A DNA stretch of 64,000 bases from an uncultured Monoglobus sp. (GTDB taxonomy: Bacteria; Bacillota; Clostridia; Monoglobales; Monoglobaceae). Position numbers and translations under genes: made by a program. A model generated the notes under the pieces. That model worked only from the letters and a program-made list of their open reading frames with translations. It was not told the origin of the DNA and searched no databases. Of this stretch, positions 44,643-51,780 are shown in pieces; positions within the stretch are counted from its first letter, which is position 1; every line of letters begins with the position of its first letter. The stretch covers positions 124,001 to 188,000 of the forward strand of contig CANRGH010000001.1 of NCBI GenBank assembly GCA_947630135.1, given 5' to 3'.

Positions 44643-46178
44643 TTAATCAATATCATTTTCTACCCAATATCTTGGATAATCCAACATTGTATAGTCAGGA
44701 TACCAGTTGTCCGCTTCCATTCTTTGTCTCAATTCCGGATCCTGCTGCCAGTTTTCATGACCAACTCCGGGACCGAAATCCATTGGCAGCGTCGGCTTGT
44801 CTATTGATACTCTGTCAAGATCCTCTATATATCTGACTCTTGCTCCAAGAGATTTTGCCACCGCCTTGAGAGGCACCATTGTTCTGTCACCTATCAATCT
44901 CGGCGGAACATCAAGCGTTATTATCTCTGTCCCGGTTCCCATATCGGGATTACCTATCTGCATTACCACGTTATGCTCGCTATCCTTTGCGGTAATAATC
45001 TCGTCTTCCGCATCCCATTCAACTTCGGCGCCGAGTTCTACAAATATTGCTCGAACAGGTACCAACAGTCGGTCATTTTCATATACCGGCTGCTCGTCAA
45101 ACTGCATTTGTTCGTTATTTACATATACAGTTGTGTATTCCTGCGCTTTTCCGTCGAGTATGTACGGGTCGGTTTCCGTTCCGCTGCCCGATTTTATCAC
45201 AGCATTTGCCTCATTTAGATAAAATGCCGGTCGAACGCCTATATCGATCCGCGTGGCATATTTAACACCGGCAACAAACTCACCGCTGTCGAAATAAGAT
45301 ATAACATCCATACAGTTGCCATCAGGTGGCACCCCCAAAAACCACCAATATAAATAGTCTTTTTCTATATCGTCTAAATCATCTTCAATATTTCTATTTA
45401 AATTCTTATAAAGCTTGGTTTTTGCAGATAAAGTAGGCTGAGCAATTTTATATCCTATGTTTTGTACCATGTTATATACTTGTTTTCCATTAAGTAAAAA
45501 CATTGTATCTGTTGACCTATACATCGCGCCCTCAACATGACTGTAATAGCCATCCTTTGAAAAATATTTATTTTTGGGCGCATAATAGGCTTTTGCTGCA
45601 TACACATGACTAAGGTATGGTAGTTTTCCTTCCGGACTATAATCATATCCGAACGCCCACTTTACGCCGTTTTCATTTTGCAGCGCATCCCGAAGATGCA
45701 AAACCTGCCATTGGTTCACTGTTTTCATAATGCTGCGTTCGCTTTGTGAAAAGTTACTTTCCGATAAAAATCCCGGTTCGCCGTTATATGGATTAAATTC
45801 GATATCCTCCGGTATATCTCTGTGCCAAGTTGTGTTTAAATAGTCGGTTGAGGAATTCAGCCAATCCCTGAGCGCGGATTCTTCCCACAGATAGTCTCCG
45901 CCCTCGGCATTTCTACCCATATGTGAATGTCTATCCTTAACTCCCGGGGTGTCTCTGTCATATTTTTTATAGCACAATATTTTATCACTAAGCATAAGCA
46001 CGCCGTTTTCATCTGCATCCACGCACTGCCATAAAATCGGTTCATTGTTATAGGTGCCCAGTTGGTAATAACTGCCGATTGAATATTCTTTAACTTCAGG
46101 CTCATTTGCAAATACATACATATTTAGCATAAACACTATCATGGTAATTGATAATAGCAAACTAATCATTCGTTTCAT
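44643..46178 (-). CDS. Secreted DUF6273 protein with C-terminal stalk domain (1)
   Basis: 511 residues. Signal peptide ~1-24. ~30-345 is a DUF6273-like region (GSYYQLGTYNNEPILWQCVDADENGVLMLSDKI; WEESALRDWLN; IDIGVRPAFYLNE), which in other proteins lies on the cell surface and has no fixed function. ~365-460 is a copper-amine-oxidase-like stalk domain (VPVRAIFVELGAEVEWDAEDEIITA, VPLKAVAKSLGARVRYI). AT-rich head, richer-GC stalk. First of four related secreted genes in a row; closest to the next one. Confidence 0.78.
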   Translation of the reverse strand: MKRMISLLLSITMIVFMLNMYVFANEPEVKEYSIGSYYQLGTYNNEPILWQCVDADENGVLMLSDKILCYKKYDRDTPGVKDRHSHMGRNAEGGDYLWEESALRDWLNSSTDYLNTTWHRDIPEDIEFNPYNGEPGFLSESNFSQSERSIMKTVNQWQVLHLRDALQNENGVKWAFGYDYSPEGKLPYLSHVYAAKAYYAPKNKYFSKDGYYSHVEGAMYRSTDTMFLLNGKQVYNMVQNIGYKIAQPTLSAKTKLYKNLNRNIEDDLDDIEKDYLYWWFLGVPPDGNCMDVISYFDSGEFVAGVKYATRIDIGVRPAFYLNEANAVIKSGSGTETDPYILDGKAQEYTTVYVNNEQMQFDEQPVYENDRLLVPVRAIFVELGAEVEWDAEDEIITAKDSEHNVVMQIGNPDMGTGTEIITLDVPPRLIGDRTMVPLKAVAKSLGARVRYIEDLDRVSIDKPTLPMDFGPGVGHENWQQDPELRQRMEADNWYPDYTMLDYPRYWVENDID

Positions 46179-46255
46179 TTTCTTTTCCCTCGCTTTGGTT
46201 TCTTTTATTAATGTTTATTACACTTATTTCTTGACTTATTTAATTTTACTATTTT

Positions 46256-47656
46256 TTATTCAAATAAGTTGCCATAATATGTACCATTAGCAATCGCTCT
46301 TAGTTGTTGCCAATTTTCCAGACCGTAACCATCACCAAAATCTTGTGGCTGCGGCACATCTATAACCACTCGTTCTAAATTATCTATGTATTCTACAGTT
46401 GCGCCAAACGACTCTGATACCGCTCTCAGCGGAACCATTGTCCGTTCACCTATAATTCGGGGTGCAACATCAAGGGTAATAACCTCTGTGCCATTTCCCA
46501 TTTCGGTATTATCTATCTGCATAACAACTGTATGCTCCCCATCGTTGGCCGTGATTACTCTATCTCCTTCGTCATATTCAACTGTGGCACCCAAAGACTC
46601 AAATATCGCTCTTACCGGCACAAGCAGACGATCATTTTCCATAATTGGCTGCTGGTCAAATTCAAGCTGTTTGCCCTGACTGAATACTGTTATTCCTTCC
46701 TGACCATATCCGTCTATCACATATGGGTCATTCCACGCCCCACTTCCTGAAATAACTTTTACATTATCTTCATTTAAGTAGAAGGCCGGACGGATACCTA
46801 ATGCGTGGCTTGGCGATTCGGATGTATAATTACTGGAATTATATACGGCATGACCATTCGTTCTCAACCAATATTGTGATGGATTGTAAAGTTCTGTATA
46901 ATATGGCGATACATTGAATGATTCCTCAAATTTTCTTAATGCTTTTTCCGTAGGTTCCGAATATGCGTCATATTTTTCCCATAAAGAATACACCTGTATT
47001 TCATCAAGTAAAAACATAGTATCAACGACTTTATACATTGCCCCTTCAATATGATTAAACTGTGATATATCGCTGTAGCCACTTGAACCTTGATGCTGAC
47101 GCGTTGCAGAATTAAATTGTGTGTTAAAAAAATACTCTACACCATTTGTTGTTTTATCTGCATTGGAAGGTGTCAATATATACCATTGGCTGATACTTTT
47201 TATTGCTGATAACTCTGTATTTGTAAAATTAGTTTCGTTTAAAAAACCATCTTCATTATCGTACGCAAAATTGATATTGCCGTTGCCTGACACATCATAT
47301 CCAAACCACAACTGACCATTGGGCGGATTTTTGCCGGGCCAAACTATATTGCTGCCATTTTCCTTTGAGTTTAACCATGTGCGTATGTTTGAATCTTCCC
47401 AAAGTCCACTTCCTGTTTGATATTCTTTATCTCGTGGGGAATCAAATGCCTTATAGCAAATAATCCTATCGCTCACAATTAACTTTCCATTATCATCTGT
47501 GCTTACACAACGCCATAATATTGGTTCGCTGTCATATTTTCCAAGCTGAACATAAGCACCATCGGTTATTAAAGCATTATCGCCGGCATACACATTTAAA
47601 AATATAGTCAAAATAAATGTGAATATAGCTATCACAATTAAAATGCCTTTTTTCAT
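46256..47656 (-). CDS. Secreted DUF6273 protein with C-terminal stalk domain (2)
   Basis: 466 residues, paralog of the gene at 44643. Signal peptide ~1-24; DUF6273 core (~30-310) with GAYVQLGKYDSEPILWRCVSTDDNGKLIVSDRI, LWEDSNIRTWLN and LGIRPAFYLNEDN; stalk domain ~330-430 (VPVRAIFESLGATVEYDEGDRVITA). Both DUF6273 proteins end in a Trp-Gln-rich tail (ENWQQ). Probably exported and wall-associated; no anchor motif seen. Partner or ligand unknown. Confidence 0.78.
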   Translation of the reverse strand: MKKGILIVIAIFTFILTIFLNVYAGDNALITDGAYVQLGKYDSEPILWRCVSTDDNGKLIVSDRIICYKAFDSPRDKEYQTGSGLWEDSNIRTWLNSKENGSNIVWPGKNPPNGQLWFGYDVSGNGNINFAYDNEDGFLNETNFTNTELSAIKSISQWYILTPSNADKTTNGVEYFFNTQFNSATRQHQGSSGYSDISQFNHIEGAMYKVVDTMFLLDEIQVYSLWEKYDAYSEPTEKALRKFEESFNVSPYYTELYNPSQYWLRTNGHAVYNSSNYTSESPSHALGIRPAFYLNEDNVKVISGSGAWNDPYVIDGYGQEGITVFSQGKQLEFDQQPIMENDRLLVPVRAIFESLGATVEYDEGDRVITANDGEHTVVMQIDNTEMGNGTEVITLDVAPRIIGERTMVPLRAVSESFGATVEYIDNLERVVIDVPQPQDFGDGYGLENWQQLRAIANGTYYGNLFE

Positions 47657-47684
47657 TATTATTTCTCCTTCTTTTCGCGAACAC

Positions 47685-47870
47685 GACGGCCGCGAGGTCG
47701 GCTAGGGCGGCATGCCCACATGCCGCCGCGGGCGGATAATATCCGCCCCCTACGGTGTTTGGCGCCTATCGCACAGGTTGCGACAATTTACGCACGTTTG
47801 GTTGTAGGGGACGACGACCTCGGCGTCCCGTGGCGACATGTGGGTATGCCGCCTAACAATGTGGAATATA
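47685..47870. repeat. Dispersed palindromic intergenic repeat cluster (1)
   Basis: Contains GGCGGCATG-CCCA-CATGCCGCC (47706-47731), GCGGGCGGATAATATCCGCCC (47731-47751) and GTAGGGGACG-type segments. No ORF. The same units recur at 49575-49735 and 51677-51780, always between the stalk-protein genes, and the core forms the terminator at 11649. Confidence 0.75.
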
Positions 47871-47886
47871 TATTTCCAAAAATTTT

Positions 47887-49539
47887 TTATTTCGTTGTTA
47901 TTATTGCGGTGTTGTTTGCTTCGTCCCATTCGGCGTTATAGCCTAAGTTTTCAGAAAGGAATCGCAGGGGAACGAAGGTTTGGTCGTTTATTAGGCGGGC
48001 TGGCACATCCATTGTGGTTTCCGCGCCGTTAACATAGGCGGTTGTGTTGTCGATCGAAAACGTTACCGTATTTTCGCCCGCCCCATTGCGCTCGCCGCCT
48101 CCGCCCCGAGCGCTTATCTTTGCGGTAGCCGCTTGGGTCGCGTCGTTCCAATCAACTTCCGCTCCCATCTGTTCAAACAAGAACCGCATTGGCACAAGTA
48201 TTCTATCGGTTTCCATGACAGGAGGCTGAGAGAAACCAAGAATTGTATCATTAAGTCGAACGTATGTGTTTGACAATTGATATGGATCTATTGGCATACG
48301 ATAAAACTTACTCATATCATTATCCCAGTATACATAATTACTACTTGTCCACTTTACAGGCGAAATATTATTTTCATCTTCCGGAAGTTTTGCAAAGCTG
48401 TAAACGCCATCAAAAGTTAAATATTTATTGTCTGTTGTATTCAATATGCCGCTCCAATACTTTGAAGCTCCAACTCCTTCAACAAGATTAACGAAATCAC
48501 TTTCGTAATCTATATAGAATTTATTGTCCATATATTCCAAATAATATCCGGCGTTGTCCGCTCCAACAGAATAACCGGATTGGGTTTTATTTTTATTTAT
48601 ATTGATATTGTTTTCCGCTTGCACATATTCATCCTTTGAAATTTCTAATAATTCTATTCCATCTAAACTTTTATAATAATTTGTACTATTGGATGTCTGA
48701 TCTTTGAAATAAAAATATCCATTATATAATCCGCAGCACACACGGTATGCCTGTACTATACTTTTATGAATTATTTCAAATTTCTCATTTAAGACATACA
48801 TAATTTTACTATAATTTGCCCAAGTTATATTTGTAGACGTCAGAACCATAAATTCCGGAGAACCAATTGCTATGTATACACCATTGCCATATACAGTGTC
48901 TCCAATTCCATTGAAATCATCTTCCGGAAGTTCAACTTCAACATCGTAATCTATGCCATCTTCTGAAAATATAATATATGATTTGTCATTTTTCTTAAAA
49001 AACTTCGAAAAATATTTTCCGTTAAAGCTTCTTTCAAATATAACTTTTTCAGGGTATATTTTAGCAGGCTTTGCAATAACCTCATACAACGGAATATTGG
49101 TTTCTATAACTTTAGCAACATTCTCGCAAATCAAATTGCTGCCGGCTATAAAGTCAAGCTCATACCAATTATTATCATTTGATAAATATTTCTTCAAAAT
49201 ATTTGTATAATCGCCGCTATTGTTTAGATACAATTTTTGTCTCTCAAATTCCAACTCATTGCTGCCATAATCATTATTATCAAAAGGATACAAATACACA
49301 TTGGGATTTACGATATGTTCAATTTGCTCATAAAATGCAATACGTGACTCGATATTATCCGAATAAATAATTGCTAATTCTACTTCACCTGTGTCTGCAT
49401 TTTCATAAATAATATAGTTAGATTGTTCCGGCAAAGATAAATCATTTAAATAATTTGCCCCACCATACTGATATGCGTTAACAGTAAAATTTACGTTTAA
49501 TATTTCTAAAACTAATAATATTAAAGCTATTTTTTTCAT
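47887..49539 (-). CDS. Secreted protein with variable N-terminus and C-terminal stalk domain (3)
   Basis: 550 residues from the ATG at 49539 (AAAGGAGAAAACGAT upstream). Signal peptide ~1-22. ~25-420 is a Tyr/Asn/Asp-rich region with no recognised family. ~425-550 is the stalk domain (TYVRLNDTILGFSQPPVMET, VPMRFLFEQMGAEVDWN, ARGGGGERNG insert, FVPLRFLSENLGYNAEWD). The stalk coding region is GC-rich and almost identical in DNA to that of gene 4; the head is AT-rich and only loosely alike. Function unknown. Confidence 0.72.
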   Translation of the reverse strand: MKKIALILLVLEILNVNFTVNAYQYGGANYLNDLSLPEQSNYIIYENADTGEVELAIIYSDNIESRIAFYEQIEHIVNPNVYLYPFDNNDYGSNELEFERQKLYLNNSGDYTNILKKYLSNDNNWYELDFIAGSNLICENVAKVIETNIPLYEVIAKPAKIYPEKVIFERSFNGKYFSKFFKKNDKSYIIFSEDGIDYDVEVELPEDDFNGIGDTVYGNGVYIAIGSPEFMVLTSTNITWANYSKIMYVLNEKFEIIHKSIVQAYRVCCGLYNGYFYFKDQTSNSTNYYKSLDGIELLEISKDEYVQAENNININKNKTQSGYSVGADNAGYYLEYMDNKFYIDYESDFVNLVEGVGASKYWSGILNTTDNKYLTFDGVYSFAKLPEDENNISPVKWTSSNYVYWDNDMSKFYRMPIDPYQLSNTYVRLNDTILGFSQPPVMETDRILVPMRFLFEQMGAEVDWNDATQAATAKISARGGGGERNGAGENTVTFSIDNTTAYVNGAETTMDVPARLINDQTFVPLRFLSENLGYNAEWDEANNTAIITTK

Positions 49540-49574
49540 ATCGTTTTCTCCTTTTATCAAATGGGAAACCCAAT

Positions 49575-49735
49575 TAGCGGGCGGATAATATCCGCCCCTA
49601 CGGTATTTTGCGCACTTTAGTCGTAGGGAGCGGGACGTCGAGGGCGCCGTCCCCTACGAATTTGGCGGCATACTTGTTGTAGGGGACGGCCCCCGGACGT
49701 CCCGTGGCGGCATGCGGGCATGCCGCCTAAAAATT
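49575..49735. repeat. Dispersed palindromic intergenic repeat cluster (2)
   Basis: GCGGGCGGATAATATCCGCCC (from 49577), CTACGGTATTTTGCGCA, GTAGGGGACGGCCCCCGGACGTCC and GGCGGCATGCGGGCATGCCGCC in series. Non-coding. Confidence 0.75.
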
Positions 49736-49765
49736 TGGAACATATAAATTCCCTAAAATCATTTT

Positions 49766-51430
49766 TTATTCCGTGGTGATTACCGCAGTGTTGGTTTCTT
49801 CGTCCCACTCAACGGTATAGCCTAAGTTTTCGGAGAGGAAGCGCAGGGGAACGAATGTTTGGTCGTTGATTAGGCGGGCAGGGACGTCCATAGGGGTTTC
49901 CGCGCCGTTCACATAGGCGGTTGTGTTGTCGATCGAAAACGTTACCGTATTTTCGCCCGCCCCGTTGCGCTCGCCGCCTCCGCCCCGAGCGCTTATTGCC
50001 GTGGCGGTTTGGGTTTCGTCGTTCCAATCGACCTCGGCGCCCATTTGTTCAAACAAAAACCGCATTGGCACAAGTGTTCTGTCATCTTCCATGACCGGCG
50101 GTTGGGAGAAACCAAGAATTGTATCGTTAAGTCGGACGTATGTTGATTCTGCGCCATCAATGTGAATTCTATAATAAAATGCCGGATCATAATCTATTAG
50201 TACATATTCTCCTGCTTTAAAAATGATTGCATTCGTCATATAATTATTTTCCCTGTATGGAATAGATGTCTTTTTATATATGCCGTCTGTAGTTAGTGAT
50301 GATGCAACATCCTTATCAAACAAAATACTTAACCATTCTTCTCCGTATGTTGGAACAGCAAGAGAATGGGTGTACTCATTTTCATATATAATTTTGTATT
50401 GTGCACCGTTATAATCTAAATAACTACTATTTTCTTTTTTATCATACGAATATACATAACCGGAATTTCCCTTGTATAGTTCATTTTGAAAATATTCCTT
50501 TGCTTCTGATAATTCCGAATCTGTATCATTAATGGAGATATAATTTATACCATCTGAACTCTTTTTGATTGTAGTTCCATTGCCAACATCTCCAAATGTA
50601 TCTGAAAAGTAAAAATATCCATTATAGTATCCAAGACATTTTCTATAAACCTCTAACCTTTCTTCATGAATAATATTAAGGTTTTCATCTATTACAAGCA
50701 TCCATTTACTTATGTTATCTTTGGTTATTGGTTTGTTTGCTATTATCGGATACTCAGGATTTCCTACAGCCATATACAATCCGTTGGCATACGTCAGCGT
50801 GTAGCTTGTATTCTTATCCGGCAACTCCAGATGAACATTATAGTTAATAGCATCATCTGAAAATACAATTTGTTCATGATCTCCATTACTATCCTGATAA
50901 AAATAATATTTATAAAAGTTTTTACCATTATAATTATTATTTAACCAAAATTTATATGGTTTATATAGCTTTTCTGCAACTGAAATGTTAGTATAAATTA
51001 TTTTTTTGAAAGTGCTGCTGATTATCTTTTCGTTGTTACTTTCAGAAAGCACCCAATAATTATCTGTTAGTGTATATTTATCGACACTTGTATTATCATT
51101 AGTTTCAACCGTCAAAGATAAATTATCAAACGGATCGACAGTTTGACCATTCTTATTATATGGATACACAAATTCTTCTATTGTTGACGACTGCTCATTG
51201 CTTTCTGCAACTAAACAAATATCCTTATTACTTTCTAATTTTATTACTGCGAGCATTATAACGTTGTCAGTATTTTGATATACCACATAATTATAACCAC
51301 TAAATCTATATATATCCGGAATGTTTTCCGCATTCTCTAAAGTGTTTGTTTCAGCAAATACTACACCTTGTATAAATACAATTATTAATGTTAATACAAC
51401 ACATATAATATTTTTCCGTTCTATTTTCAT
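49766..51430 (-). CDS. Secreted protein with variable N-terminus and C-terminal stalk domain (4)
   Basis: 554 residues. Signal peptide ~1-26 (ends VVFAET). ~30-425 shares a scattered pattern with gene 3 (YNYVVYQNTDNVIMLAVIKL; YTLTYANGLYMAVGNPEYP; LNIIHEERLEVYRKCLGYYNGYFYFSD), so the heads are distant paralogs. The stalk (~430-554) is close to identical to that of gene 3. The same TYVRLNDTILGFSQPPVME joint occurs in both. Likely a duplicated, diversified surface protein. No catalytic motif seen. Confidence 0.72.
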   Translation of the reverse strand: MKIERKNIICVVLTLIIVFIQGVVFAETNTLENAENIPDIYRFSGYNYVVYQNTDNVIMLAVIKLESNKDICLVAESNEQSSTIEEFVYPYNKNGQTVDPFDNLSLTVETNDNTSVDKYTLTDNYWVLSESNNEKIISSTFKKIIYTNISVAEKLYKPYKFWLNNNYNGKNFYKYYFYQDSNGDHEQIVFSDDAINYNVHLELPDKNTSYTLTYANGLYMAVGNPEYPIIANKPITKDNISKWMLVIDENLNIIHEERLEVYRKCLGYYNGYFYFSDTFGDVGNGTTIKKSSDGINYISINDTDSELSEAKEYFQNELYKGNSGYVYSYDKKENSSYLDYNGAQYKIIYENEYTHSLAVPTYGEEWLSILFDKDVASSLTTDGIYKKTSIPYRENNYMTNAIIFKAGEYVLIDYDPAFYYRIHIDGAESTYVRLNDTILGFSQPPVMEDDRTLVPMRFLFEQMGAEVDWNDETQTATAISARGGGGERNGAGENTVTFSIDNTTAYVNGAETPMDVPARLINDQTFVPLRFLSENLGYTVEWDEETNTAVITTE

Positions 51431-51446: not shown

Positions 51447-51639
51447 CTATCTTGCATATAGCATATTAGTTATTCCGGCACTCGCTGCATTTGGTAATGC
51501 TATTGAATACTCTAAAACTACTTTACCGTTTTGTGGTATACTAAAACCAAACAATTCAACAAATGATAAGTAATTATCAGATATGGCACATTTAATATTA
51601 TACCCATAATCTGTTTTAACAACATTATATCTTTTTCAT
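51447..51639 (-). pseudogene. Remnant of a secreted-protein gene
   Basis: On the minus strand a GGAGAG site and ATG AAA AAG ATA TAA lie at its start; one base out of frame a readable tail continues (VKTDYGYNIKCAISDNYL ... GITNMLYAR) to a TAG at 51447-51449. It looks like the first codons of a signal peptide joined by deletion to a C-terminal end. It lies upstream of the four stalk genes on the same strand and has the same AT-rich style. Confidence 0.5.
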
Positions 51640-51676
51640 GTATAATCTCTCCTTATATTAAATTGAAAATCCGATT

Positions 51677-51780
51677 AACGGGCGGATAATATCCGTCCCT
51701 ACGGTATTTTGCGTATTACGGTTGGCGTTTTGGCTCGCCCCTTGGGGAGAGCTGTCCCTACAGCGTTTGGTATACAATAC
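51677..51780. repeat. Dispersed palindromic intergenic repeat cluster (3)
   Basis: ACGGGCGGATAATATCCGTCC then CTACGGTATTTTGCGTA, matching cluster 2, then GGGGAGAGCTGTCCC. Non-coding. Confidence 0.65.

Follow-up and report, generated by a model that had tools for sequence, protein, structure and literature searches.

Two adjacent genes, here called A and B, in a 64,000-nucleotide stretch of DNA from an uncultured Monoglobus sp. (GenBank assembly GCA_947630135.1, contig CANRGH010000001.1, positions 124,001 to 188,000; the whole stretch is referred to below as the window) probably encode secreted two-part proteins, in which a head is carried on a C-terminal PF07833 stalk domain. Across species, A and B each keep their head as a stable ortholog, whereas hardly any orthology is left in their stalks, which are mosaics that switch at a central loop. 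In all likelihood, the stalk-coding part of about 375 bases, down to about 20 bases past the stop codon, has been replaced by recombination with other stalk copies. This shuffling of stalks under stable heads is the reverse of the antigenic-variation pattern.

Gene A (47887–49539, minus strand) comprises a signal-peptide-like N-terminus (recognized by eye), an AT-rich head (48268–49539) and the stalk (47890–48267), and gene B (49766–51430) has the same layout, with its head at 50144–51430 and its stalk at 49769–50143. The start of A is most likely the ATG at 49539, with AAAAGGAG just upstream, rather than the TTG at 49560. The first-pass annotation had been drawn to these genes by their shared tails under AT-rich, distantly alike heads, and this observation holds: both genes lie on the minus strand, head and stalk meet at the same joint, TYVRLND, at 48267 in A and at 50143 in B, and the shared tail of about 125 codons is 86% identical in DNA over 428 bases (E 2.6e-141) and 91% identical in amino acids, while the heads share only 31–33% of their residues and about 49% of their bases. 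To call the tails almost identical DNA was nonetheless an overstatement, as 47 of 375 aligned bases (12.5%) and 19 of 60 four-fold sites differ. Likewise, the tails do have a higher GC content (0.50 in A, 0.54 in B) than the heads (0.30 and 0.29, respectively), but this is ordinary against a window mean of 0.499, so that the AT-rich heads, and not the supposedly GC-rich anchors, are the compositional outlier. Throughout the genome (2.35 Mb in 42 contigs), the two tails are the sole copies of their stalk type; beyond this pair, matches to the tail at E ≤ 0.001 amount to four pieces of about 40 bases each.

The ortholog comparison was made with the sister genome G007 (genomes G004–G014 were placed in the same genus as that of the window), where feoB, B, A and the two further stalk genes C and D keep their order, an additional stalk gene being interposed between B and A. 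Relative to G007, gene A of the window differs at 36 of 1272 bases in the head (2.8%; 96% amino-acid identity) and at 49 of 378 in the stalk (13.0%), and gene B at 17 of 1287 in the head (1.3%; 98% amino-acid identity) and at 41 of 375 in the stalk (10.9%); the neighbouring feoB differs at 111 of 2460. The contrast is sharper at four-fold sites, of which 6/113 differ in the head and 19/58 in the stalk of A (Fisher p 4e-6), and 6/131 and 18/64, respectively, in B (p 8e-6), i.e., about 5% in the heads and 28–33% in the stalks. In 100-base blocks along the syntenic alignment, most coding blocks differ by 0–9%, against 11–18% in the A stalk and 8–16% in the B stalk, and divergence steps near the head/stalk joint in both genes, the diverged tract running from about the joint to about 47860 in A and 49750 in B. 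The proposal of a fixed anchor with fast-changing heads has therefore to be turned around, with heads diverging by 1.3–2.8% and anchors by 11–13% between orthologs.

The same comparison bears on the idea of an antigenic or ligand-variation cassette, in which heads would be rapidly exchanged onto a fixed anchor. Such head exchange could be suspected from A and B heads that are so little alike on closely similar stalks, from the several head types borne by such stalks in relatives, and from the variable gene content of the cluster, as exemplified by the extra gene in G007. Between the window and G007 it is contradicted: orthologous heads are better conserved than the stalks, the heads do not diversify faster, and both loci keep their heads, where swapped heads on the same anchor had been envisaged. 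In addition, a search of the genome with a head profile yields A and B alone (E ≤ 1e-6, with 5 of the 11 first-look candidates scored), and the two other genome places matched by the whole of B at E ≤ 1e-20 correspond mainly to the stalk (residues 404–552 and 423–552); in these limited searches (E ≤ 1e-20, or 5 of 11 candidates scored at E ≤ 1e-6), no silent partial head copies were found. Head exchange is thus a very improbable account of this locus.

Fast divergence as a trait of all stalk domains can be ruled out. PF07833 is found at 27 places in the genome at E ≤ 0.001 (26 of them above the curated cut-off), of which 23 were entered in a control comparison; three of these are without a G007 partner, and among the resulting 20 orthologous stalk pairs just A, B, and D pass p < 0.0025, three others being nominal only (L011, 0.0067; L013, 0.024; L014, 0.04). 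In this control, the head of A includes some upstream non-coding codons, and the segment figures given above are cleaner for that gene. Gene D (44643–46178, minus strand) encodes a DUF6273-like head with a PF07833 stalk and differs from its G007 counterpart by 1.3% in the head and 7.0% in the stalk, part of which reaches 11–13% in the syntenic blocks, while gene C (46256–47656, minus strand; DUF6273 head with PF07833 stalk) shows no such contrast, its stalk not being diverged from G007. That A and B, and more weakly D, stand out among 20 pairs therefore points to local recombination and not to a property of the domain.

Mis-assembly of metagenomes, joining heads to the stalks of other strains, has also to be considered. 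Shared stalks are places where assemblers can switch, and the fact that most of the named relatives are metagenome assemblies weighs in its favour and against recombination. However, the shared-stalk pattern is also present in G005, a genome in one contig of 2,757,678 bases, which makes assembly error unlikely: three of its genes, one of them about 400 kb from the other two, have stalk DNA 85–90% identical under heads only 23–26% identical, and in a further pair, identity is 97.5% for the stalks and 68% for the heads, two other pairs being alike throughout (stalks 99–100%, heads 88–96%). This comparison covers 30 of the 49 places in G005, and shows the shared-stalk pattern without repeating the ortholog test. 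Moreover, the other 17 of the 20 orthologous stalk pairs pass no strict threshold, and tails that are 12.5% apart should be resolvable by short reads. Mis-assembly is accordingly given a very small probability, on a par with that of head exchange.

Evidence for recombination comes from the stalks themselves. Their divergence is much the same whichever way they are paired: 12.5% and 15.6% between paralogs within a genome, 10.9% and 13.0% between orthologs, and 10.7% and 14.0% in crossed pairs. Sites splitting the four A/B stalks two against two do so 12 times by head, 6 times by genome, and 11 times in the crossed arrangement. The pairwise homoplasy index (PHI; own script, 1,000 permutations) rejects clonal descent, with p 0.001 on 19 stalks and 0.001–0.006 on the 8 of A/B type; for this test and for the search for switch points, four distant stalks (G17_M, G17_N, G4_K, and G3_L) of 23 were left out, the DNA identity among the 19 closer ones being mostly 75–90%. 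Individual switch points are seen at the central loop. A B ortholog in L084, for instance, differs from the G007 B stalk at 4 of 147 bases before the loop and at 44 of 186 after it, and past the loop follows another stalk type; conversely, in a pair of G009 genes whose heads are different, 35 of 147 bases differ ahead of the loop and 7 of 186 beyond it. At differing sites, both states are found among 17 other stalks in 39 of 45 and 37 of 40 cases.

Several observations temper this interpretation. Trees built from 333 stalk bases are poorly resolved, and approximately unbiased (AU) tests reject no head class as a clade (p 0.41, 0.065, 0.41, and 0.39). Head labels are clustered on the stalk tree beyond chance, with 6 changes against a shuffled mean of 8.9, and near-identical runs are longer in same-head stalks (mean 48.4 bases in 18 pairs, versus 36.1–39.5; L84_B was left out of this comparison besides the four distant stalks), so that some orthology remains. 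Runs are not significantly longer in stalk pairs from the same genome than in those from different genomes (39.5 versus 36.1; p 0.20 and 0.12); within-genome conversion is therefore not claimed as the main route, and donors are placed in a genus-wide pool. In the genome of the window, no resident donor was found for A or B besides the partner gene, nor any second stalk copy for D. High divergence is also met outside the A and B stalks, in one feoB block (12%) and in several intergenic repeat stretches (12% or more). Finally, the p value of D is 0.0017 with the domain bounds and 0.0077, i.e., above threshold, with wider bounds.

Local hypermutation of the stalk, by error-prone repair at the hairpin repeat that its loop contains (see below) or by a diversity-generating system, could be put forward to explain why the raised differences are concentrated in the A and B stalks. 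It is slightly less credible still than the two preceding explanations, as the 49 base differences in the A stalk change just 11 of 126 residues, the two states at differing sites recur in other stalks, blocks are shared with switch points between them, and divergence is raised in the D stalk without a hairpin. More specifically, the dense amino-acid-changing variation of a diversity-generating retroelement target is not seen in the A stalk. Least probable of all is a tandem duplication without recombination, the stalk being kept by purifying selection while the heads evolve under relaxed or positive selection. This would fit genes that adjoin with similar flanks and the constraint expected on a stalk domain, but is refuted by four-fold sites far more diverged in stalks than in heads between orthologs, and is also at odds with the stalk mosaic.

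Recombination of the stalk, which the first-pass annotation had already invoked as gene conversion of the shared tail, is thus the part of that proposal that is supported. The process would be ordinary RecA-type ectopic gene conversion, i.e., homologous recombination with tracts limited to where paralogs are alike. Since it is in the stalk that paralogs carrying different heads resemble one another at the DNA level, tracts would end where this homology ends. The genome now holds two copies of this stalk type, and for this reason the donors would be paralogs residing at different loci or in different strains, or no longer present. Exchange of the stalk is presumably neutral or weakly selected, and the in-frame inserts of its loop would travel along with it.

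The stalk is assigned to Pfam PF07833 (Cu_amine_oxidN1, "stalk") with 112.9 and 122 bits, against a curated cut-off of 24.2, and a sequence search of solved structures with the B stalk gave no match at E ≤ 0.01. Genes A to D are consecutive on the minus strand (44643–51430), and all four proteins have a hydrophobic N-terminus (by eye) and the PF07833 domain at or near the C-terminus; none has an NCBIfam name, and no sorting motif for surface attachment was seen by eye. The C and D heads are of DUF6273 type; those of A and B have no Pfam match. Of 291 genomes of the class, at least 19 contain a match to the head profile, at most five first-look candidates having been scored per genome, and several of the matching proteins again end in a stalk-like domain (by eye). 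A structure model from 24 sequences (predicted local distance difference test, pLDDT, 73.8; a first model was poor, with pLDDT 34) shows a head made up largely of beta structure, for which the best partial matches are in most cases propellers (Z 8–10 over 100–230 residues), with low Foldseek TM-scores; the head profile gave one chance-level match to solved structures (E 0.29). Suggestive only, these data indicate that the heads may be beta-propellers. In G006, the head of the A ortholog (L056) is interrupted by an in-frame stop.

The central loop spans 45 nt in A (48076–48120, minus strand) and 42 nt in B (49955–49996, minus strand). It contains RGGGGERNGAGE, the most GC-rich patch, encoded by an in-frame copy of a dispersed hairpin repeat of about 41 nt (model matches at 48067–48122 and 49946–50001). 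When 12 genomes of the genus are searched at E ≤ 1e-4, this repeat appears in 11, with at least 2–10 matches in each of these (lower bounds, at most 150 first-look candidates of up to 1,225 having been scored per genome), and also lies outside the stalk family, between genes (gene context by eye). In 20 chosen copies, none from a stalk gene, the stem covaries: its score is 0.335, compared with 0.074 on average after shuffling (the observed score being reached in 0 of 500 shuffles), and 99.3% of cells are paired. Two other measures exceed shuffles only moderately, namely the number of pairs with changes on both sides (3, reached in 25 of 500 shuffles) and that of further pair types (7, reached in 31 of 500). 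Nine of 58 copies examined are in frame in stalk loops, eight recognized by motif and one, in G014, by reading; the 58 come from at least 63 matches, the five weakest being left out. These stalk loops are where in-frame translated insertions have been identified, the remaining copies being without gene-by-gene annotation. In some relatives, the loop contains a short form that resembles the hairpin repeat with 21 nt removed from between GGCG repeats.

Relatives also have other repeat-like inserts at this loop. An insert in G009 is matched at 12 further places in that genome, mostly over part of its length, and at 12 in the genome of the window, and is therefore a dispersed repeat, although as folded DNA it is not more stable than shuffles (z -1.2). 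Another, palindromic with long inverted ends, is shared by G009 and G004 at this loop (83% alike), has no further place in the three genomes searched, and folds more stably than shuffles (z -3.4 and -3.1). In the structure model, loop residues 479–487 have low confidence, as expected of a flexible loop, and it is probably this flexibility that allows in-frame insertions to be tolerated.

The hairpin pattern has no match in viral contigs, and at four loci searched in Rfam (the window not among them), three matches were obtained, all far below gathering scores. A region with terminase-, portal-, and capsid-like genes (by eye), G000:C15:32000-59795 (L102, L103), carries 7 of the 10 hairpin copies of its genome (E ≤ 1e-4), all on one strand and some antisense just upstream of ribosome-binding sites. 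With its covarying stem, the hairpin of this prophage-like region could be a phage post-transcriptional control element.

A second repeat, the palindrome GGGCGGATATTATCCGCCC, lies between the genes of the cluster: between B and A (49579–49597), between A and C (47730–47748) and, with one mismatch and placed by eye, upstream of B (51680–51698). Allowing up to 2 mismatches, the genome contains it at about 155 places, against 0 for a reversed control. The extra stalk gene of G007 (L054:8454-9857) lies between two such palindromes, one imperfect, where the window counterpart (49579–49607) holds a single one, in keeping with a gain or loss of the gene through recombination between repeats. Between the upstream palindrome and gene B, positions 51460–51640 hold a short remnant of a reading frame that appears to be broken; it has a ribosome-binding-site-like start of its own and is conserved in G007 (by eye).

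A and B thus provide a clean natural case of a protein family whose constant part is renewed more quickly than the part that one would expect to vary. A near-identical tail under different heads, when seen in one genome, is easily misread as head variation, and it is the ortholog comparison that shows the opposite. More broadly, and as a tentative and rather unlikely suggestion, the stalk module might be a genus-wide exchange unit whose loop is a preferred landing site for palindromic repeats, the shared stalk and flanking palindromes enabling recombination to add, remove, or re-stalk head genes; a surface-protein repertoire would then be kept by shuffling its constant part and not its variable one.

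In a thin search of the open-access literature, no report of recombining PF07833 stalks was found, which is not proof of absence. According to the part of the source available, the name of the domain is also applied to the N-terminal domain of a Paenibacillus superoxide dismutase (PMC10432803); here, the domain is C-terminal to a head without a Pfam name. As for the loop, it adds a further case, outside Rickettsia, of a small palindromic repeat turned into protein sequence, here at one tolerant site. Rickettsia palindromic elements (RPE) are inserted in frame in protein genes (PMC10969869, PMC3733652), and the present hairpin is likewise translated in frame in coding genes and also present between genes. 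However, RPEs, as the accessible text of these sources presents them, measure about 150 bp and occur in unrelated genes, whereas a hairpin of about 41 nt and other inserts share one loop of one domain family here. Repetitive extragenic palindromic (REP) sequences offer another parallel: alternative complementary stem bases are described for REP sub-families in the available part of PMC3733652, and the present hairpin is a short, GC-rich imperfect palindrome with such alternative stem bases. It differs in that the GTAG or CGTC tag was not seen by eye, and in its distribution, with few matches counted per genome (the lower bounds given above) and 7 of 10 copies here on the contig with prophage-like genes.

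The closest precedent is that of homA/homB, and of babA/babB, in Helicobacter pylori, where 5' segments group with their orthologs, whereas orthology is lost in 3' segments via gene conversion between paralogs, according to the portion of PMC2795765 available. A and B resemble them in that the 5' part follows orthology and the 3' part does not, albeit with single-clade AU tests that are not significant and some orthology remaining. They differ in that, from the same portion of that source, Helicobacter 3' segments are closer within a strain, whereas the within-genome excess of A/B stalks is not significant and their divergence is no lower within genomes than between orthologs. Compared with the Helicobacter genes as presented there, the heads of A and B are also far more divergent, and what is exchanged is a defined domain carrying inserted repeats.

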